DNA from: Streptomyces sp. B3I8
GTDB taxonomy: Bacteria > Actinomycetota > Actinomycetes > Streptomycetales > Streptomycetaceae
NCBI RefSeq assembly: GCF_030816915.1
Contig: NZ_JAUSYN010000002.1
Span: 806,001-870,000 of the forward strand
Direction: 5' to 3'
Length of the DNA stretch: 64,000 nucleotides
Shown: positions 35,489 to 45,313 of the stretch, one piece after another
Layout: every line of letters starts with the position of its first letter
Numbering within the stretch: position 1 is the stretch's first letter
The notes under the pieces: generated by a model
Seen by the model: only the letters and a program-made list of their open reading frames with translations
Database searches by the model: none
What the model was told of the DNA's origin: nothing
Program-made: the position numbers and the translations under genes

Positions 35489-36739
35489 GTGACGCGTTAC
35501 CGGCACTTCCGTCCCAGAGCCCGGCTCACCACCGTCCTCGCCCAGCTCTCCGTCCTCGGCGCGCTGGCCGGCGCCACTCTCGCGGGCGCGGCGCCCGCCG
35601 GCGCCGTACAGCACGCCGTCGACGTCTCACCCGGCGTCACCTACCGGGACTTCGACCTCGCCGCGGCCCACGGGACGACCCACGTCCATCTGCTCTCCGT
35701 CGATCTGCGCGATCCGCATGTACGTGTCGACCTGCTGTATCCGGGTGCCGTCGCCGCCCGCGCCGCCGTGTCCCGGATGGCGGCGTCCGCCGGGGCAGTC
35801 GCCGGTGTCAACGGTGATTTCTTCGACATCAGCGAGGCCCAGCACCCCGGCGTGGAGGTGACCGGCGCCCCGGTCGGCCCGGCGGTCGCGGGCGGCCGGG
35901 CGCTGAAGGCGGCGGTGCCGCGCGGCCAGCGCTTCGGCCCGGCACTGCCGGCCGGGGGCAGCACCGAGGACGTACTCGGCGTCGGCACCGACGGGGTGGC
36001 GCGGCTGGACCGGCTGGCTCTCTCCGGAACGGTGCGGACGGCGGCCGACGGGGCGCTGCCGCTGCGCGGGCTCAACCAGTACGCGCTGCCCGAGGGTTCG
36101 GTCGGGGCGTACACCGCCGACTGGGGCGGCGTCTCGCGGCGGCGGGCGGTGTGCGGTACCGACACCGAGCGCGCGGCGCCCTGCGGTACGGACACCTACG
36201 AGGTCACCGTGCGTGGCGGGCGGGTCGTCTCGGCCGCGGACTCCCCCGGTTCCGGGACGATCGCCGGCGGCACGACCGTGCTGGTCGGCCGCGAGGCGGG
36301 CGCCCAGTGGCTGCGCAAGCTGTCCGTGGGCGAGAAGGTCACTGTGGGGCAGTGGCTGGTGGCTGCGAAGGCGGGCGTGCCGTACCGGTTCGCCGTCGGC
36401 GGTGCCGTACTGCGGCGGGACGGCCGGGAGGCGCCGGGGCTGGACGACTCGGTGTCGGCGGTCCGCACGGCGCTGGGCATCGCGGACGGCGGGAGGCGGT
36501 TGCTGCTGCTCGCGCTGGACGGCGGGGCGGCGTACCGGTCCGGGCTGACCGTCACCGAAGTGGCCGCGGAGTTGGGGCGGTTGGGTGCGTCGGACGCGTT
36601 CGGGGTGGACGGTGGGGGGTCCACGACACTCGTGACGAAGGGCGCGGGAAGTGGGGCTGTCGATGTGCGGAACCATCCCTCCGGGGGTGCGGAGAGGGCG
36701 GTCGCCAATGGGGTGGGCGTGTTCGCCGTCGGAGGGTGA
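35489..36739 (+). CDS. Secreted phosphodiester glycosidase-like protein (NAGPA domain)
   Basis: 416 residues. A GTG start at 35489 follows CAGGGGG. The Sec signal peptide spans about 1-39 (ends AGAV). The rest is a NAGPA/DUF2233-type phosphodiester glycosidase domain with landmarks GVNGDFFD (about 108-115), LLLALDGG and FGVDGGGSTTLV near the end. The family removes sugars from phosphodiester-linked glycans in some members and is extracellular in Streptomyces. One Cys pair (VCGTDTERAAPCGTDT) could form a disulfide. The substrate is unknown. Confidence 0.85.
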   Translation: MTRYRHFRPRARLTTVLAQLSVLGALAGATLAGAAPAGAVQHAVDVSPGVTYRDFDLAAAHGTTHVHLLSVDLRDPHVRVDLLYPGAVAARAAVSRMAASAGAVAGVNGDFFDISEAQHPGVEVTGAPVGPAVAGGRALKAAVPRGQRFGPALPAGGSTEDVLGVGTDGVARLDRLALSGTVRTAADGALPLRGLNQYALPEGSVGAYTADWGGVSRRRAVCGTDTERAAPCGTDTYEVTVRGGRVVSAADSPGSGTIAGGTTVLVGREAGAQWLRKLSVGEKVTVGQWLVAAKAGVPYRFAVGGAVLRRDGREAPGLDDSVSAVRTALGIADGGRRLLLLALDGGAAYRSGLTVTEVAAELGRLGASDAFGVDGGGSTTLVTKGAGSGAVDVRNHPSGGAERAVANGVGVFAVGG

Positions 36740-38251: not shown

Positions 38252-39477
38252 CGGGCCAGGTCCTTCCAGGCGACGTCCTTGTCGGTGCGCGGTTCGGCGG
38301 GCAGGCCCAGGACGCGCTCGGCGACGATGTTGAGCAGCACCTCGCTGGTGCCGCCCTCGATGCTGTTGCCCTTGGAACGGAGGTAGCGGTAGCCGGCCTC
38401 TCGGCCGGTGAAGTCGACGAGTTCGGGCCGGCGCATGGTCCAGTCGTCGTACAACAGGCCTTCCTCGCCGAGGAGTTCGACTTCCAGGCCGCTGATCTCC
38501 TGATTGAGGCGGGCGAAGGCGAGCTTCATGCCGCTGCCCTCGTAGCCGGGCTGTCCGGCGGCGAGCTGCTGGCGCAGGCGTTCGGCGGTGAGGCGGGAGA
38601 CCTCGGCCTCCACCCACAGTTTCAGCAGCCGCTGGTGCAGGTCGTGGGTGCGCAGCTCGGGGCGTTCGCGCCAGGTGCGGGAGACGGGGCCGATCATGCC
38701 GCCCTCGCGGGGCAGGCGCATGCCGCCGATGGAGACGCGCTCGTTCATGAGGGTGGTCTGGGCGACCCGCCAGCCGTCGCCGACCGCGCCGAGCCGGCGG
38801 GAGTCGGGGATGCGGACGTCGGTGAGGAAGACCTCGTTGAACTCGGCCTCGCCGGTGATCTGCCGCAGCGGGCGGACCTCGACGCCGGGGTCGGTCATGT
38901 CGCACACGAAGTAGGTGATGCCGCGGTGCTTGGGGACGCCGGGGTCGGTGCGGGCGATGAGGATGGCCCAGCGGGCGACATGGGCGCTGGACGTCCACAC
39001 CTTCTGTCCGTCGACCACCCAGTCCTCGCCGTCGGCCACGGCGCGGGTGCCGAGCGCGGCGAGGTCGGAGCCGGCGCCGGGTTCGCTGAACAGCTGGCAC
39101 CACACCTCCTCGCCGGTCCACAACGGGCGCAGGAAGCGCTGCTGCTGCTCGGGCGTGCCGTACTGCAGAATCGTCGGCGCGGCCATGCCGAGGCCGATGC
39201 CGATCCGCCGGGGGTCGTTGTCGGGGGCGCCCGCGGACTCCAGTTCGGTGTCGACGACGGCCTGCAGCGAGCGGGGGGCGCCGAGGCCGCCGAGGCCCTC
39301 GGGGTAGTGCACCCAGGCCAGGCCCGCGTCGAAGCGGGCGCGGAGGAAGTCGAGCCGGCCGGCACCGGCGGGCGGGTGGGCGGCGAGGAACTCGCGGGTG
39401 CGTCGGCGCAGTTCGGGGGCGTCGAGCTTCTCGGGCACGTGGGTCGCGGGTTCGCCGGGCGCGTCGTGGTCCGTCAT
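38248..39477 (-). CDS. Acyl-CoA dehydrogenase, catalytic subunit-like
   Basis: 409 residues: the ACAD N-terminal domain, the middle motif CQLFSEPGAGSDLA (about 130-145), and the C-terminal IEGGTSEVLLNIVAERVLGLP carrying the catalytic Glu. It is translationally coupled at both ends: its ATG overlaps the stop of the quinone oxidoreductase gene, and its stop overlaps the start of the second ACAD. The operon probably oxidises a branched or cyclic acyl-CoA; the substrate is not determinable. Confidence 0.9.
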   Translation of the reverse strand: MTDHDAPGEPATHVPEKLDAPELRRRTREFLAAHPPAGAGRLDFLRARFDAGLAWVHYPEGLGGLGAPRSLQAVVDTELESAGAPDNDPRRIGIGLGMAAPTILQYGTPEQQQRFLRPLWTGEEVWCQLFSEPGAGSDLAALGTRAVADGEDWVVDGQKVWTSSAHVARWAILIARTDPGVPKHRGITYFVCDMTDPGVEVRPLRQITGEAEFNEVFLTDVRIPDSRRLGAVGDGWRVAQTTLMNERVSIGGMRLPREGGMIGPVSRTWRERPELRTHDLHQRLLKLWVEAEVSRLTAERLRQQLAAGQPGYEGSGMKLAFARLNQEISGLEVELLGEEGLLYDDWTMRRPELVDFTGREAGYRYLRSKGNSIEGGTSEVLLNIVAERVLGLPAEPRTDKDVAWKDLAR

Positions 39478-40451
39478 GCGGAAGCTCCGTTCTTCGCTGC
39501 GGGCAGCACGACGATACGGCCCGTGCTGACGCCGTCGGCCACCCGCTGCACGGCGGCCGACGCGTCCTCCAGCGGGACCCGCTCGCTCACCAGCGGCTTG
39601 ATCGCGCCCCGGGCGGCCAGTTCGGTGAGCTGCTCGTGGCAGTGCCGGACCAGCTCGGGGTTCTTGGTGTTGTACAGGCCCCAGTGCAGGCCGAGGATGG
39701 AGTAGTTCTTGACCAGGGCGTGGTTGAGCGCCGGGCTGGGGATCGTGCCGCCGGCGAAACCGACGACGACGATGCGGCCCTCGAAGGCGGCGAGCTTGGC
39801 GGACTGCTCGTAGGCCGTGCCGCCGACGGGGTCGTAGATCACGTCGGCGCCCCGGCCCCCGGTGGCTTCCTTGACCGTGGCCACGACGTCCTCGGCGCGG
39901 CGGTCGACGACCAGGTCGCAGCCGAGGGTGCGGGCGACGGCGGCCTTCTCGGCACCGCCGACGACGCCGATGACCGTGGCGCCGGCGGCCTTGCCGAGCT
40001 GGACGGCGGCGCTGCCGACCCCGCCGGCGGCGGCGTGCACGAGGAGCGTCTCGCCGGCCTCCAGGCGGGCCCGGCGGTGCAGGCCGAACCAGCCGGTCTG
40101 GTAGCCGATGTGCAGGGCGGCGGCCTCGGCGTCGTCGAGCGGGTCCGGGGCGGGCAGGAGGGCGGCGGCGTCCGCGAGGGCGTACTCGGCGAATCCGCCG
40201 TACGGGAGAGCGGTGGTGGCGAGGACGCGACGACCGTCCTCGGTCTCGCCGCAGATCTCCACGCCCGGGGTGAAGGGCAGCGACGGGCGGACCTGGTACT
40301 GGCCGCGGCAGAGGAGGGCATCGGGGAAGTTGATGTTCGCGGCGCGCACCCTGAGCCGTACCTGGCCGTCGCCGGGGGTGGGCGGTTCGGCGTCCACGAG
40401 GCGCATGGCCTCAGTGGGTTCGCCGTTCTCGTGCACCTGCCATGCCTGCAT
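39474..40451 (-). CDS. Zinc-independent quinone oxidoreductase (MDR family)
   Basis: 325-residue medium-chain dehydrogenase/reductase. The NADPH-binding stretch LLVHAAAGGVGSAAVQLGKAAGATVIG (about 142-168) has the AAGGVG motif, and zinc-ligand cysteines are missing, as in quinone oxidoreductases (QOR). It is first in a three-gene operon with two acyl-CoA dehydrogenases, so it may act as an enoyl-CoA/enone reductase or handle electrons in the same lipid pathway. ATG 40451 lies about 100 nt from a TetR-type palindrome. Confidence 0.9.
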   Translation of the reverse strand: MQAWQVHENGEPTEAMRLVDAEPPTPGDGQVRLRVRAANINFPDALLCRGQYQVRPSLPFTPGVEICGETEDGRRVLATTALPYGGFAEYALADAAALLPAPDPLDDAEAAALHIGYQTGWFGLHRRARLEAGETLLVHAAAGGVGSAAVQLGKAAGATVIGVVGGAEKAAVARTLGCDLVVDRRAEDVVATVKEATGGRGADVIYDPVGGTAYEQSAKLAAFEGRIVVVGFAGGTIPSPALNHALVKNYSILGLHWGLYNTKNPELVRHCHEQLTELAARGAIKPLVSERVPLEDASAAVQRVADGVSTGRIVVLPAAKNGASA

Positions 40452-40552
40452 GCGCGGCCTCCAGAGACTGGGTCGTCGGTCGGTCCGGGATTCCGCGGTC
40501 TGCGCGGCCGAGCGGTCTGCGCAGTTCCGCGGTTCCGCCCCGACGACATACT

Positions 40553-40564
40553 AAGCGGTCGCTT
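40553..40564. promoter_or_regulatory. TetR-type operator upstream of the acyl-CoA dehydrogenase operon
   Basis: AAGCG-GT-CGCTT is a 12-bp inverted repeat in the context ACTAAGCGGTCGCTTGC, resembling operators seen before actinobacterial fatty-acid/acyl-CoA genes controlled by TetR repressors. It lies about 100 nt before the quinone oxidoreductase start. No TetR gene is adjacent. Confidence 0.55.
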
Positions 40565-40824
40565 GCACATAGGGGAACAGGCTCCGCTCCACGGCGTCAC
40601 CGGGGCGCCCCGCACTCCCGCTTTTCCATATGGTCTCATTGACGATAAGGGCGGCGGCGTGCGAAGCTGGCGGGGCGTCAATCCACGCCGATCAGCGGCA
40701 ATTCACCGAAAGGTGCGCCTATTTCGGCTTTCGCCGCGTTCGCGTCGTTCCGGTCGGCCGTCCGACCACTCTTCCGATCGCCGTTGTGTCACATCCCGTC
40801 TCGTCTCGTCCCCACGGAGTTTCC
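40565..40824. other. Upstream region of the ARH fusion gene
   Basis: About 260 nt with no convincing gene. The frame of the fusion protein stays open from 40630, but codon use before 40825 is not coding-like. ATG 40825 has CGGAG about 6 nt upstream. Confidence 0.4.
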
Positions 40825-43530
40825 ATGCCGCACGCCGCCGCCCGTGCCCCACAGCCCCACCTGGACCCGCAGTGCACCGATCGCGCCGCGGGCGTCCTGC
40901 TCGGCGCGGCCGTGGGAGACGCGCTGGGCGTGCCCTACGAGTTCCAGGCCACGCTGACCGGGAACGAGCAGCCGCGGATGATCGGCGGTGGTCTGGGGCC
41001 GTACAAGCCCGGCGAGTACTCCGACGACACCCAGATGCAGGTGTGCATCGCCGAGGTCGCGGCCACCGGAGCCGATCTGCGGGGTGCCGAGGCCCTCGAC
41101 GCGGTCGCGGCGAATTTCCAGCGGTGGCTGAGCGAGGGCGCGAGCGACGTCGGGAACCAGACCAGAGCCGTGCTGAACGCCGCCGGACGCGCGGCCGGAG
41201 CGGCCGGAGCGGCGATGCGGGAGGCAGCGGCCGCCTTCACCGCGGCCCGCGCGAACAGCGCCGGCAACGGCTCGCTCATGCGGACCGGGATCGTCGCCCT
41301 CGCCCACCTCGGTGACGCGACGGAGATGGCCGAGGCCGCCGTCGCGGTCAGCGGGCTCACCCACCCCGACCCCGACTGCGCCGATGCCTGCGTACTGTGG
41401 TGCTCCGGCATCCGCACCGCCGTGCTGAAGGGCACCTTCGACGGCGTACGGGCCGGTCTGGAACTGCTTCCCGCCGAGCGCCGGGCCCTGTGGACCGAGC
41501 GGCTGGACGAGGCGGAGGCCCACCCTCCGCACCACTTCTCCCCCAACGGCTGGGTCGTCACCGCGCTCCAGGCCGCCTGGTCGGCGATCACGCGCACCCC
41601 CGTGCCCGTGCTGAACCCCGGCGAGGGCAGCTTCCCCGCCCAGCACCTGCGGCTCGCCCTCGAGGCGGCGGTGCGGGCCGGCGACGACACCGACACGGTC
41701 GCGGCGATCGCGGGCGCCCTGCTCGGGGCGCGCTGGGGTTGTTCCGGCATCCCGCTGCGGTGGCAGCAGGACGTGAACGGCTGGCCCGCGCTCACCGGCG
41801 TCGACCTCGTCCGGCTGGCGGTGCGCACCGCCCGGGGCGGACGGGACGACTCCGCCGGCTGGCCCTCCGCGGGCCGCCTGCCCGTCCCGGCGGACGCGCC
41901 CCGCGCCTTCGCCGTCCCCCACCCGCTCGACCCCGGAGTCGTCCTGGGCAACCTCGCCCTCCTCCAGGGAAGCGCGCCGGTCGACGTCGACGCGGTGGTG
42001 TCGCTGTGCCGCATGGGCACGGACCCGGTCCTGCCGGGCACCGACGCCGAGCACGTGCGCGTCTGGCTGGTGGACAGCGACAAGCAGAACGCCAACCTCC
42101 ACTACGTCGTGGACCAGGCGGCCCGCGAGGTGCTGCGGCTGCGGAAGGAGGGCAAGCGGGTCCTGCTGCACTGCGTCGCCGGGCAGAGCCGTACGCCGGC
42201 CGTCGCCGCGGTCTACAGCCACCTCGCGCACGGAATCGGCTCCGAGGCCGCGCTCTCCGGTCTGCGTGAGGTGCTGCCGCACGGCCGGCAGCTCTCGGCA
42301 CACACCGAACTGCTGGACGCGGTCCACGCGTTGGCCGCCGGGGCCGTCGGGCCCGTCCGGGGGACCGGGTCCGCCGAGCCCAGCGAGTCCGCGCGGTCGG
42401 CGCAGGCGGAGCGGCCTGCGGAATTCCTGAATGGGAAGGGCGCTGCCTCCCGGGTGCGCGGCCTGATGCTCGGGCTCGCGCTGGGGGACACGCTGGGCAC
42501 CGCGAAGGGCAAGCTGCCCGCCGCCGGAACCCTGCGGGCCGGTGTCAGCACCCAACTGGCCTGCTTCACCGCGGAGGGCACCATCCGCGGTCTCGTGCGC
42601 GACGATCACAGAGGCATCTGCTCACCTTCGGGGGGCATCGCGCACGCCTACTGCCGCTGGGCCGCCCTCCAAGGGATCGAGGTCGAGCGGATGCGCGCAC
42701 GCTGGGCCCATGGTGACGGAGTCTGGCCCGACGGCTGGCTCGCCCAGGTGTCCGTGCTCGCCGAACGGCGCGGCTCGGCTCCGGCGACCGTGGCGGCCCT
42801 GTCCCGGATCGAGCAGGGCGACACGGGGAAGCCGACGGCCAGCCGCGGCTGCCACGCGCTCACCCGCACCCTTCCCGTCGCCGTGGTCGGCGCCGCCCAC
42901 ACCCACGGACAGGCAGCCGGGCTGGCACGGGGCGTCGCCGCCCTCACCCACGGCGACCCGGCCGCGCAGTCCGCGGCGGCCCATGCGGTGGTCCTGGCCG
43001 GCCACTGCCTCACCGCCGCGCAGGACGACGCCCGGGACTCCGGGCCCGCCGGGCGGTCGCGGGTCCGGCAGGCCCTGCGGGACGGCATGCGGGCCCTTCC
43101 CTACGCCGACCCGGATCTGACGGCCGACGAGCGCGACCGGCTCTGCGCCGCGCTCGGGGAGGCCGAGGGGCATCCCGCGGACGCGGCACGGCTCGCGAAG
43201 CTCGCGCCCGACGCCACCGCGCCGTCGGCACTGCTCGGCGGGGTGTACGTCGCCGCGTCCTTCCCCGGCCGGGACCAGTTGGACGCCGCGCTGTGCTTCG
43301 CCGCCGGGGCCCCGGACGGCGACTCGGTCGCCTGTGTGACCGGCGCGCTGCTCGGCGCGGCGCACGGCGCGGAGGCGCTGCCCGTCGGCCTGGTGAGCCG
43401 GCACGAGCTGGCCTGGGTGCTCGACACCCTCGCCCACGACCTCGTCGCCCAGTTCACCGATCCACCCAGCGGGAGCGAGTACGTCAGCGGCTGGGACCCG
43501 CACTGGTGGGGCCGCTACCCCGGCTGGTGA
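40825..43530 (+). CDS. ADP-ribosylglycohydrolase - dual-specificity phosphatase - ADP-ribosylglycohydrolase fusion
   Basis: 901 residues in three parts. (1) ARH/DraG-type domain (about 16-345) with metal motifs GDALG (31-35), SDDTQ (66-70) and GDDTDTVAAI (286-295), which removes ADP-ribose from targets or small metabolites. (2) Phosphatase domain (about 365-505) with the Cys-X5-Arg loop HCVAGQSRT, Cys450 and Arg456. (3) A second ARH-like domain (about 540-880) that keeps GLALGDTLG and FTAEG but has VSTQ where DDTQ is expected and DGDSV where DDTDT is expected, so it is probably inactive. Cytoplasmic, transcribed alone. A combined role in ADP-ribose-phosphate processing or reversing ADP-ribosylation is an inference. 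Confidence 0.88.
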   Translation: MPHAAARAPQPHLDPQCTDRAAGVLLGAAVGDALGVPYEFQATLTGNEQPRMIGGGLGPYKPGEYSDDTQMQVCIAEVAATGADLRGAEALDAVAANFQRWLSEGASDVGNQTRAVLNAAGRAAGAAGAAMREAAAAFTAARANSAGNGSLMRTGIVALAHLGDATEMAEAAVAVSGLTHPDPDCADACVLWCSGIRTAVLKGTFDGVRAGLELLPAERRALWTERLDEAEAHPPHHFSPNGWVVTALQAAWSAITRTPVPVLNPGEGSFPAQHLRLALEAAVRAGDDTDTVAAIAGALLGARWGCSGIPLRWQQDVNGWPALTGVDLVRLAVRTARGGRDDSAGWPSAGRLPVPADAPRAFAVPHPLDPGVVLGNLALLQGSAPVDVDAVVSLCRMGTDPVLPGTDAEHVRVWLVDSDKQNANLHYVVDQAAREVLRLRKEGKRVLLHCVAGQSRTPAVAAVYSHLAHGIGSEAALSGLREVLPHGRQLSAHTELLDAVHALAAGAVGPVRGTGSAEPSESARSAQAERPAEFLNGKGAASRVRGLMLGLALGDTLGTAKGKLPAAGTLRAGVSTQLACFTAEGTIRGLVRDDHRGICSPSGGIAHAYCRWAALQGIEVERMRARWAHGDGVWPDGWLAQVSVLAERRGSAPATVAALSRIEQGDTGKPTASRGCHALTRTLPVAVVGAAHTHGQAAGLARGVAALTHGDPAAQSAAAHAVVLAGHCLTAAQDDARDSGPAGRSRVRQALRDGMRALPYADPDLTADERDRLCAALGEAEGHPADAARLAKLAPDATAPSALLGGVYVAASFPGRDQLDAALCFAAGAPDGDSVACVTGALLGAAHGAEALPVGLVSRHELAWVLDTLAHDLVAQFTDPPSGSEYVSGWDPHWWGRYPGW

Positions 43531-43602
43531 CCCGCGGGACCCGGCACAGGCACGGCACCGACCTGGATCTCGGCCCGGCACAGGCCCCGTACCGGCGCGA
43601 CG

Positions 43603-44229
43603 TCAGGCGTCCCCGCCCCGTCGCGTCGGCCGGGCCCGTACGTGCATCCGCTCGCCCTGGGGGCCGAACAGGCTCAGGAACTCTGTCGGCCCCTCCCCCG
43701 TCGAGCCGAACCAGTGCGGCACGCGCGTGTCGAACTCCGCCGCCTCACCGGGGCCCAGCACCACGTCGTGGTCGCCGAGCACGAGCCGCAGCTTCCCCGA
43801 CATGACGTACAGCCATTCGTAACCCTCGTGGGTGCGCGGGTGGGGTTCGCAGGCACGCTGCGGTTCCAGCACCTTGAACGCCTGCAGCCCGCCGGGCTGG
43901 CGGGTGAGCGGCCAGTACGTGCGGCCGAACCGGGCGATCGGCTCCGACCGTACCCGGGGGTCCCCCACCTTCGGGGCGCCCACCAGTTCGTCCAGCGGCA
44001 CCTGGTGCGCGCGGGCGATCGGCAGCAGCAGTTCCAGGGAGGGCCTGCGGAGCCCGGACTCCAGCCGGGACAGTGTGCTCACCGAGATGCCGGTCGCCTC
44101 CGACAGCGCGGCGAGCGTGGCGCCGCGCTCCTTGCGGATCCGCCGCAACCGGGGGCCCACCTCGGCGAGGACCTCGTCCGTGTCGCCGTCACCGCTTGCG
44201 GGAGTTTCGTCCCGCGCATCGTCGCTCAT
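43603..44229 (-). CDS. XRE-family regulator with C-terminal cupin
   Basis: 208 residues. The HTH is VGPRLRRIRKERGATLAALSEATGISVSTLSRLESGLRRP (about 24-63), followed by a cupin_2 barrel (about 110-195) with HPRTHEGYEWLYVMSGKLRL and PGEAAEFDTRVPHWF, whose His residues may hold a metal. ATG 44229 lies 6 nt after a good -10 element, so the transcript is nearly leaderless. It diverges from a thioredoxin-reductase-like gene and probably regulates it; such cupin regulators often sense redox state or a small metabolite. Confidence 0.88.
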   Translation of the reverse strand: MSDDARDETPASGDGDTDEVLAEVGPRLRRIRKERGATLAALSEATGISVSTLSRLESGLRRPSLELLLPIARAHQVPLDELVGAPKVGDPRVRSEPIARFGRTYWPLTRQPGGLQAFKVLEPQRACEPHPRTHEGYEWLYVMSGKLRLVLGDHDVVLGPGEAAEFDTRVPHWFGSTGEGPTEFLSLFGPQGERMHVRARPTRRGGDA

Positions 44230-44235
44230 CGCTTC

Positions 44236-44264
44236 ATTGCAGGTTCGGCAAGTTCGTTTGTCAA
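44236..44264 (-). promoter_or_regulatory. Promoter of the XRE-cupin regulator
   Basis: On the minus strand TTGACA (44264-44259) and TGCAAT (44241-44236) are separated by exactly 17 nt. The -10 ends 6 nt before the ATG at 44229, which predicts a leaderless mRNA. Confidence 0.6.
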
Positions 44265-44305
44265 TACGGAGGGGTTCGGTGAGGCTGCCCGTGGAGGTGG
44301 TCACC

Positions 44306-45313
44306 ATGACCGACACGCACACCGACAACCACATCGACCGACCCACCGACAGCTACGAGGTCCTCGTCGTCGGGGGCGGCGCGGCCGGGCTCTCCGCCGG
44401 GCTGGTCCTCGGCCGGGCCCGGCGCAGGACGCTCGTCGTGGACGCGGGCGAACCGCGCAACGCGCCCGCCGCGCACATGCAGGGCTACCTGTCCCGGGAC
44501 GGCATGCCGCCGGCCGAGCTCCTGGCCGTGGGCCGCGAGGAGATCGCCCGGTACGGGACGGTCGAGCTGGTCCAGGACCGGGTCGTCGACCTGACCCGGG
44601 ACGGGGCGGACGGGACAAGCCCCCTCGGCTTCACCGCCGCCCTGGCCGGCGGGCGGACGGTCCGTGCTCGGCGGGTCGTCGTGGCGACGGGGCTGAAGGA
44701 CGAGCTGCCGTCCGTGCCCGGTGTCGCCGAGCGCTGGGCACGGGACGTCATCCACTGCCCGTACTGCCACGGCTGGGAGGTGCGCGACGAGGCGTTCGGA
44801 GTGCTGGCCACCTCCCCGATGAGCGTCCACCAGGCCCTGCTGGTCAGCCACTGGTCCAAGGACACCACGCTCTTCCTGAACGCCGTGGCCGAGGAGGACC
44901 TCTCCGACGACGAGCTGCGCAGGCTCGCCGCGGCGGGCGTGGACGTCGTCCCGGGCGAGGTCGCGGAGCTGGTGGTCGAGGAGGACCGGATCACCGGCGT
45001 ACGGCTGGCGGACGGCTCGGTGCACGCCCGTTCCGTGGTCTTCGTCGCGCCCCGCATGGTGCCGCGCACGGGGCTGCTGGAGAAGCTGGGCGCCGAGCTG
45101 CGGGAGACCCCGATGGGCTCCTGTCCGGTGGTGGACGAGACGGGGCGTACGACGGTGCCGGGGGTGTGGGCCGCGGGGAACGCGACCCTCGTCGCGCAGC
45201 AGGTGATCAACGCGGCGAGCACGGGGTACACGGCGGCGGCCGCCGTCAACGGCGAGCTGGTCTTCGAGGACATCGACGCCCGGGTCGGGGTGGCACGGGA
45301 CGGGGCGGCGTAG
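44306..45313 (+). CDS. Thioredoxin-reductase-like FAD oxidoreductase
   Basis: 335 residues. The FAD motif VLVVGGGAAGLSAGLVLGRA (about 19-38) is followed by the redox-active CPYC in DVIHCPYCHGWEV (about 150-162). The C-terminal FAD contact reads PGVWAAGNATLVAQQVINAASTGY. GGAGGTGG precedes ATG 44306. This group includes bacterial ferredoxin- or FAD-dependent disulfide reductases that lack a canonical NADPH motif: the second Rossmann region (GVLATSPMSVHQALLVSHWS) has no GxGxxA. Divergent from the XRE-cupin regulator. Electron donor and substrate are unknown. Confidence 0.85.
   Translation: MTDTHTDNHIDRPTDSYEVLVVGGGAAGLSAGLVLGRARRRTLVVDAGEPRNAPAAHMQGYLSRDGMPPAELLAVGREEIARYGTVELVQDRVVDLTRDGADGTSPLGFTAALAGGRTVRARRVVVATGLKDELPSVPGVAERWARDVIHCPYCHGWEVRDEAFGVLATSPMSVHQALLVSHWSKDTTLFLNAVAEEDLSDDELRRLAAAGVDVVPGEVAELVVEEDRITGVRLADGSVHARSVVFVAPRMVPRTGLLEKLGAELRETPMGSCPVVDETGRTTVPGVWAAGNATLVAQQVINAASTGYTAAAAVNGELVFEDIDARVGVARDGAA

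Follow-up and report, generated by a model that had tools for sequence, protein, structure and literature searches.

A three-domain Streptomyces protein with a predicted ADP-ribosylhydrolase, a predicted phosphatase and a conserved, putatively non-catalytic ARH domain

ADP-ribosylglycohydrolases (ARGs, here also ARHs) and phosphatases of the rhodanese-phosphatase superfamily have been described on the same polypeptide or in adjacent genes by Iyer et al. 2022 (PMC9503650). The text of that paper, figures and supplements aside, reports phosphatases of all kinds in a little over 55% of ARG neighbourhoods and, for over 42% of the systems, a regulator of Nudix or WYL type, which is hence not obligatory, and proposes that hosts use ARG systems against viral ADP-ribosylation. 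According to passages of a second study (PMC11833690), ARH-like and macrodomain enzymes act on phosphate-end ADP-ribosylated RNA, and the ARH-like SCO5809 of Streptomyces coelicolor is active on this substrate. An ARH pseudoenzyme is described, in excerpts of the literature, from vertebrates: the cardiac ADPRHL1, in which catalytic residues are missing and a biological role is kept. Here we describe the gene for P0001, a 901-residue protein of Streptomyces sp. B3I8, within a window of 64,000 nucleotides (the whole stretch of DNA that was analysed; contig NZ_JAUSYN010000002.1, positions 806,001-870,000 of the forward strand). It consists of a complete ARH domain (D1), a dual-specificity phosphatase (DSP)-type domain and a second, degenerate ARH domain (D3). 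We give a probability of about 0.5 to the reading that P0001 is an eraser of ADP-ribosylation that also has a phosphatase and, in its pseudo-ARH, a reading or regulatory module, and that it has a role in conflict. A sequence-only reading of the same DNA had placed the gene at 40825..43530 and given the protein 901 residues and an ARH-phosphatase-ARH anatomy, all of which is borne out by the reading frame, profiles and folds; it had also presented the joining of ARH and phosphatase as new, in which it was anticipated by the text of Iyer et al. 2022 (PMC9503650). The parts of the protein are as follows, in positions of the window.

40825..43530, plus strand: P0001, three-domain protein of 901 aa; ATG at 40825, stop codon included
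40825..41859, plus strand: D1, aa 1-345, predicted complete ARH/DraG-type ADP-ribosylhydrolase (Pfam stretch aa 23-311)
41020..41034, plus strand: D1 metal motif 1, SDDTQ, aa 66-70
41680..41697, plus strand: D1 metal motif 2, GDDTDT, aa 286-291
41902..42351, plus strand: predicted DSP-type cysteine phosphatase domain, aa 360-509
42169..42195, plus strand: phosphatase P-loop HCVAGQSRT, aa 449-457
42352..42441, plus strand: fast-evolving linker, about aa 510-539, placed by substitution rates and predicted structure
42442..43527, plus strand: D3, aa 540-901, putative ARH-fold pseudo-hydrolase
42544..42555, plus strand: D3 former metal motif 1, now VSTQ, aa 574-577
43315..43329, plus strand: D3 former metal motif 2, DGDSV, aa 831-835

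D1 has every ARH feature tested, and hydrolysis of ADP-ribosyl bonds is predicted for it. The PF03747 profile matched the whole protein at D1 with 218.5 bits (2e-64), above its cut-off, and structure searches matched the ARH fold. A homologue search with P0001 found 598 proteins at E 0.001; among the 120 listed, 66, mostly from Streptomyces, are of 800 aa or more. In the alignment of these 66, E39, S66, D67 and D68 were found in all 64 ungapped rows, and D288, D290 and T291 in 66/66. We take the ligand roles of these residues to be those of their ARH3 counterparts; E41, D77 and D314 of ARH3 are named in PDB titles. Scores against the Tri1 equivalog NF041672 (104.9 bits, cut-off 490) and the DraG equivalog TIGR02662 (86 bits, cut-off 337) fell far under both cut-offs. 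These scores count against a scheme in which the protein erases two protein marks, D1 stripping ADP-ribose and the phosphatase stripping protein phosphate from the same or different targets whilst D3 docks the target; moreover, the fold that is shared with such enzymes shows no substrate, and we consider the scheme rather unlikely.

The middle part is, by prediction from sequence, a DSP-type phosphatase. The DSPc profile (PF00782; curated cut-off 33.5) gave 34.8 bits for a 160-aa piece and 31.8 bits, slightly below the cut-off, in the whole protein. The HCx5R[ST] loop is present as HCVAGQSRT and the DSP fold was matched in the structure search (MKP-2, 3ezz). Across the 66 long homologues the catalytic-loop arginine R456 is kept in 64 and C450 in 61, the remaining five (P0029, P0067, P0068, P0075, P0083) having Ser in place of the Cys.

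D3 has the ARH fold and fails the catalytic definition, as judged from its residues. A 326-aa piece scored 65.8 bits against PF03747 (6.6e-18; cut-off 26.2), so both outer thirds, as proposed from the letters alone, match this profile, and the fold search agreed. In the alignment, Val574-Ser575 takes the place of Asp67-Asp68 of D1. The equivalent of Glu39, the glutamate after GDALG, is absent, and the stretch from GD to the motif is shortened relative to active-looking relatives with VTDDTQ. Among the 66 fused proteins V574 and S575 are each kept in 62 and Asp occurs at either position in none (0/66). The D3-only set, 117 proteins of 243-585 aa (median 366) which may hold fragments from short contigs and of which one, P0124, has a phosphatase loop, gave 113/117 for V574, 94/117 for S575 and 0/117 for Asp at either position. 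The second motif was likewise said to be replaced, and there the claim is only half right: the DGDS of this protein keeps D831, D833 and S834. D831 and S834 are widespread (65/66 and 66/66 in the fused set, 107/117 and 109/117 in the D3-only set). D833, present in 60/66 fused proteins, falls to 65/117 in the D3-only set, and this variation across relatives suggests that it is not under ligand-like constraint.

The former metal loop itself (STQLACFT, segment 575-582) is the second most conserved 8-residue block of the D3-only set, and H709 is constant (117/117). D3 is thus read, from these alignments, as a conserved pseudo-ARH that is not decaying in most of the family. An exception is the line of P0067, P0068, P0075 and P0083, in which phosphatase and D3 are both altered and L069 has relaxed values for both. 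Recent decay was considered and is ruled out for most of the family by purifying selection and the constant replacement of the metal pair. Because the Glu and the Asp-Asp are lost and the altered loop is strongly conserved, D3 is most likely a non-catalytic reader or regulator; on this point the sequence-only reading, which took the third domain to be a binding module, holds up. A D3 that is purely structural, a ligand-free dimer or scaffold surface, would fit the lost metal pair and the structural matches of D1 and D3 to ARH-like folds within large assemblies (8xks_Q, Orf2971-FtsHi motor; 9hny_FP, mitoribosomal small subunit complex). However, a pure scaffold needs neither the conserved STQLACFT loop nor the constant H709, which makes this account unlikely. 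That D3 retains catalytic activity, through a single metal or by a new mechanism, is least probable of all: the retention of D831 and S834 and the strong constraint on the VSTQ loop speak for it, but D3 lacks counterparts of Glu39 and Asp67-Asp68, and D833 varies freely.

D1 and D3 fall in separate ARH clades, which suggests that two ARH lineages were probably fused to give the present protein. D3, whether fused or alone, groups with ten same-genus ARHs (support 98/94), six of which carry V[TS]DDTQ, and D1 falls in another clade (99/95). The tree sampled every fourth of the 66 proteins with D1 and D3 matches and every sixth of the others, and omits own_L005, own_L006, own_L007 and P0060; the tree program cautions about long branches, and support at the deepest fork is low (61/21). 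An origin of D3 as an internal duplicate of D1 is ruled out by the different clades and by a best match between the two of only 43 columns (E 0.002). In the sister clade of D3 the Asp pair has been lost a second time, in four members (VTAATQ, VTHLTQ, VSHLTQ). A separate degenerate ARH paralogue of the B3I8 genome, at L002 1360-2475 (contig C2, about 3046 kb), has VSHLTQ in place of the Asp-Asp motif, and its relatives L041, L043 and L051 likewise lack the pair. The pair is missing there as in D3, which indicates that the metal pair was lost more than once in the genus.

The three-motif architecture is not due to chance, since SDDTQ, HCx5R and the D3 loop are found together in 59/66 long homologues; five of the others have Ser for Cys and two (P0060, P0063) lack the first motif. 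D1-D3 forms without a phosphatase also exist, P0061, P0062 and P0064 keeping VSTQ and DGDS, and L072 and L080 keeping SDDTQ and VSTQ. Moreover, D1-DSP and D3 each exist as a gene of their own, on different plasmids and chromosomes. The parts form a modular set, and the three-part fusion is one of its states. The linkage of the parts, on which the sequence-only reading had leant, is therefore qualified by these separate genes and by the D1-D3 form, yet the 59 proteins do have all three motifs fused. Alignments used here comprised A1, 87 rows hand-picked from 237 proteins, and A2, 41 rows from the D3 set. All three domains are under purifying selection: the median ratio of non-synonymous to synonymous substitution rates (dN/dS; 78 pairs, 13 sequences) was 0.26 for D1, 0.34 for the phosphatase domain and 0.37 for D3, and 0.84 for the linker (aa 506-538), of which aa 510-529 have a predicted local distance difference test (pLDDT) score under 50 in the predicted structure. 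Left out of these medians was Actinacidiphila glaucinigra L069, a Cys-to-Ser protein, which against P0001 gave 0.70 for the phosphatase domain, 0.67 for D3 and 0.36 for D1.

The gene lies alone between two neighbours, and two further features of the site are given here.

40816..40819, plus strand: GGAG, likely ribosome-binding site, read from the sequence; 5 nt upstream of the ATG
40452..43602, plus strand: single-gene islet, of which the first 373 and last 72 bases are outside the gene

The start at ATG 40825 is supported by the GGAG 5 nt ahead. The islet comprises the 3,151 bases between QOR, a zinc-type quinone/alcohol dehydrogenase gene (39474-40451, minus strand) found in 107/121 genomes, and an XRE-cupin regulator gene (43603-44346, minus strand). 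The empty site was looked for in the best 29 of 106 relatives with a QOR match; in 29/29 the acyl-CoA dehydrogenase (ACAD), QOR and XRE-cupin genes are adjacent and a P0001 match is absent at E 1e-6. Streptomyces sp. NRRL F-6676 (L060) carries the gene at this site too; six of the neighbours there are 90-97% identical and one reading frame is 80% identical, the two genes sharing 91% identity in D1, 87% in the phosphatase domain and 85% in D3. A conserved operon was not found: this strain is the only one to share the flanks of the window among the compared three-domain loci. S. sennicomposti (L074, with phosphatase) and Streptomyces sp. BK239 (L080, 758 aa, D1-D3) share three common downstream neighbours, which suggests that at a single place a phosphatase has either disappeared or been acquired; the gene calls at both loci are crude, being based on G+C at third positions. 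Among the repeats listed around the islet there was no convincing pair of mobile-element terminal repeats. G+C is 0.751 in the islet and 0.743 in each flank, and composition therefore gives no sign of foreign origin.

The surrounding genes are ordinary, encoding phosphoketolase, aldehyde and acyl-CoA dehydrogenases, DNA ligase, phosphofructokinase and TetR regulators. Nineteen frames between 30.4 and 55.4 kb of the window were scanned, two of which (at 47-50.6 kb) are probably antisense to genes; their regulators are one helix-turn-helix (HTH)-cupin and two TetR proteins. No ADP-ribosyltransferase family was among the Pfam matches of the scanned frames. The published systems may also have a predicted chaperone or ARPP gene nearby; here, some of the neighbour frames had no Pfam match. 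A phosphodiester glycosidase gene (PF09992) lies within a few kb of the three-domain gene (window 35489-36739) and also of a D3-only gene (L091 5687-7294). A match to the window glycosidase protein lies similarly near a D1-only gene (L073 13246-14310). The nearness in all three may be chance; in the 44 loci scanned this protein matched only itself, L060 and L073, and we build nothing on the link. Elsewhere in the B3I8 genome, L053 6459-11655 (C2, about 1593-1598 kb) holds four PF03747 matches packed into 5 kb of a single strand, three of them confirmed whole proteins. L048 (C2:4795256-4795562) carries a remnant of aa 160-218 (75%) followed directly by aa 856-900 (67%), as if it were the leftover of a decayed second copy, and G177:C24 has a tail match similar to that of L048.

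The distribution of the parts is patchy. With four candidates scored per genome, 199 same-genus genomes yielded all three parts in B3I8, G142 and G177, and in 295 genomes a close D3 was found in seven (B3I8, G102 as a fragment, G142, G152, G177, G216, G223); the D3 search found 421 proteins, 120 of them listed. On plasmids, 76/72,556 records matched P0001 and none of these covers 80% of the query. Among the 40 plasmid matches listed, 26 span about D1-DSP with 62-70% identity, on records of 223-518 kb (25 Streptomyces and 1 Kitasatospora, several being near-copies from S. cellulosae), and two cover D3 alone with 62-68% identity. Six of these plasmids were examined and all are linear. In pFRL4, pFRL5 and an S. 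cellulosae plasmid the D1-DSP gene is oriented against a series of genes, most of them hypothetical, and a DNA methylase lies a few kb off; an S. nojiriensis plasmid has similar surroundings, with a small same-strand gene next and a NUDIX gene about 7 kb away. On the Pimelobacter simplex plasmid pA-N39 (L100), a more distant D1-DSP relative (48.5%) forms a same-strand run with a DUF6569 gene and a TM0106-type RecB-like nuclease gene. A D3-only gene on the 713-kb linear plasmid NZ_CP109267.1 (L097) lies about 4-5 kb from contractile phage-tail genes.

Phages matched at D1 only: tblastn found 18/50,697 records, and none of the 18 matches reaches the phosphatase or D3. Eleven Streptomyces phages have a D1-like gene with 43-49% identity, named 'hydrolase' in ten. 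In phage Marky (L093) it follows an SprT-like protease gene and a small open reading frame near the right genome end. The scan of viral contigs with P0001 found nothing.

The gene thus seems to travel alone, as an accessory islet here, with its D1-DSP half on large plasmids and D1-like enzymes in phages, and this occurrence would fit a conflict between host and mobile elements over ADP-ribosylation. In the eraser that we favour, D1 would bind two metal ions and hydrolyse ADP-ribose off a macromolecule, as its complete ligands and fold suggest. The phosphatase would then remove phosphate exposed or left by the D1 step, its target being for example a nucleic-acid end formerly ADP-ribosylated on phosphate, or a released product. 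D3 would most likely serve D1 without catalysis, as a reader or a regulatory partner, its ADP-ribose pocket being reused to hold or sense substrate or product. Enzymes of the DSP fold can act on RNA 5' ends. The order of hydrolase then phosphatase would be sensible because removal of ADP-ribose from RNA phosphate ends would expose phosphate, to judge by the relevant passages of PMC11833690. A more specific version, to which we give only a low probability, makes the single chain an eraser, end-trimmer and reader, with D1 hydrolysing at phosphate ends or on proteins, the phosphatase trimming the phosphate so exposed, and D3 acting as a dedicated ADP-ribose reader that steers or gates D1. If this were true, D3 would represent an ARH-fold reader in bacteria, derived from a second ARH lineage and of a type not found in limited literature searches; it would have been brought in by fusion and passed on, as an accessory islet of one gene, in an arms race of host, plasmid and phage.

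Alternatively, phosphatase and D1 could act successively, as in the scheme of the sequence-only reading, which named ADP-ribose-1''-phosphate and phosphoryl-ADP-ribosyl species as possible substrates; the former is a small molecule that arises as a by-product when Tpt1/KptA repairs RNA. The genome does encode a KptA/Tpt1 homologue (E 4.1e-49), and a phosphatase beside an ARH suits removal of the 1''-phosphate. However, the KptA gene is unlinked, about 2.6 Mb away, hydrolysis of ADP-ribose-1''-phosphate needs the phosphatase alone and leaves D1 unexplained, and some relatives have no phosphatase domain, so that we judge this scheme improbable.

Several observations weigh against the favoured eraser, reader and conflict proposal. 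The full-length model has a predicted template modelling (pTM) score of 0.65 and does not fix the arrangement of the domains. Retention of D831 and S834, together with D833 in this protein, makes a residual single-metal site possible in D3. L069 relaxes D3 along with the phosphatase, and D1-D3 forms keep D3 free of a phosphatase; coupling of the parts is therefore not uniform. Moreover, D3 is present where no D1 was detected (G152, a draft genome with four candidates scored, and plasmids H45 and H46, with one matching place each), so its job need not be service to D1. No Nudix or WYL regulator was found in the 19 scanned frames, and PADLOC gave no match for three proteins. Lastly, according to passages of PMC11833690, a PARG outperformed SCO5809, and ADP-ribose linked to guanosine was not a substrate on which the ARH-like enzyme was active.

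Erasers of ADP-ribose play a central part in conflicts involving toxins, phages and RNA repair, and many bacterial ARHs are without an assigned role. A conserved pseudo-ARH in one chain with a phosphatase and an ARH that appears to be active offers a direct route to the function of a bacterial ARH pseudoenzyme, and the natural set of D1-DSP, D1-D3, D1-DSP-D3 and D3 alone provides a ready series of domain combinations. The D1-like genes of phages and the D1-DSP genes of plasmids raise the question of whether host or mobile element is served.

How the protein compares with known systems can be set out domain by domain. D1 resembles the ARH/DraG family (DraG 2woc, Tri1 6dre/6drh, ARH3) in its fold and in all metal-motif residues, but differs in its 18-28% identity in structure alignments, in lying below the Tri1 and DraG equivalog cut-offs and in being fused to a phosphatase. 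It is, like SCO5809, a Streptomyces member of the ARH family, a likeness by family only. The middle domain shares fold and HCx5R[ST] loop with dual-specificity phosphatases (PF00782; MKP-2, 3ezz), whereas its score near the Pfam cut-off and its place between two ARH folds set it apart. D3 is like ADPRHL1 in lacking catalytic residues and, by analogy, in probably having a role; unlike that vertebrate cardiac protein, it groups with actinobacterial ARHs. A literature search for an ADP-ribosylglycohydrolase pseudoenzyme found no paper, and the three-domain form was not found published in literature searches on ARH and phosphatase, the text of PMC9503650 included.

As a whole, P0001 stands closest to the systems of Iyer et al. 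2022 (PMC9503650), so far as these are set out in the text of that paper. Like them it is actinobacterial and joins an ARG and a cysteine phosphatase in one polypeptide, with no ADP-ribosyltransferase family among the Pfam matches of neighbour frames, and the RecB-like nuclease gene beside the pA-N39 relative resembles the restriction endonuclease (REase) neighbours named there. In contrast to many of them, no Nudix or WYL gene was found for it in the window, and its third, degenerate ARH is absent from their text, figures and supplements aside. Homologues already bear the JGI name 'ADP-ribosylglycohydrolase/protein-tyrosine phosphatase'. The whole protein is a variant of the ARG-phosphatase kind; the fusion of ARH and phosphatase was already known, and the conserved dead third domain seems to be the new part.

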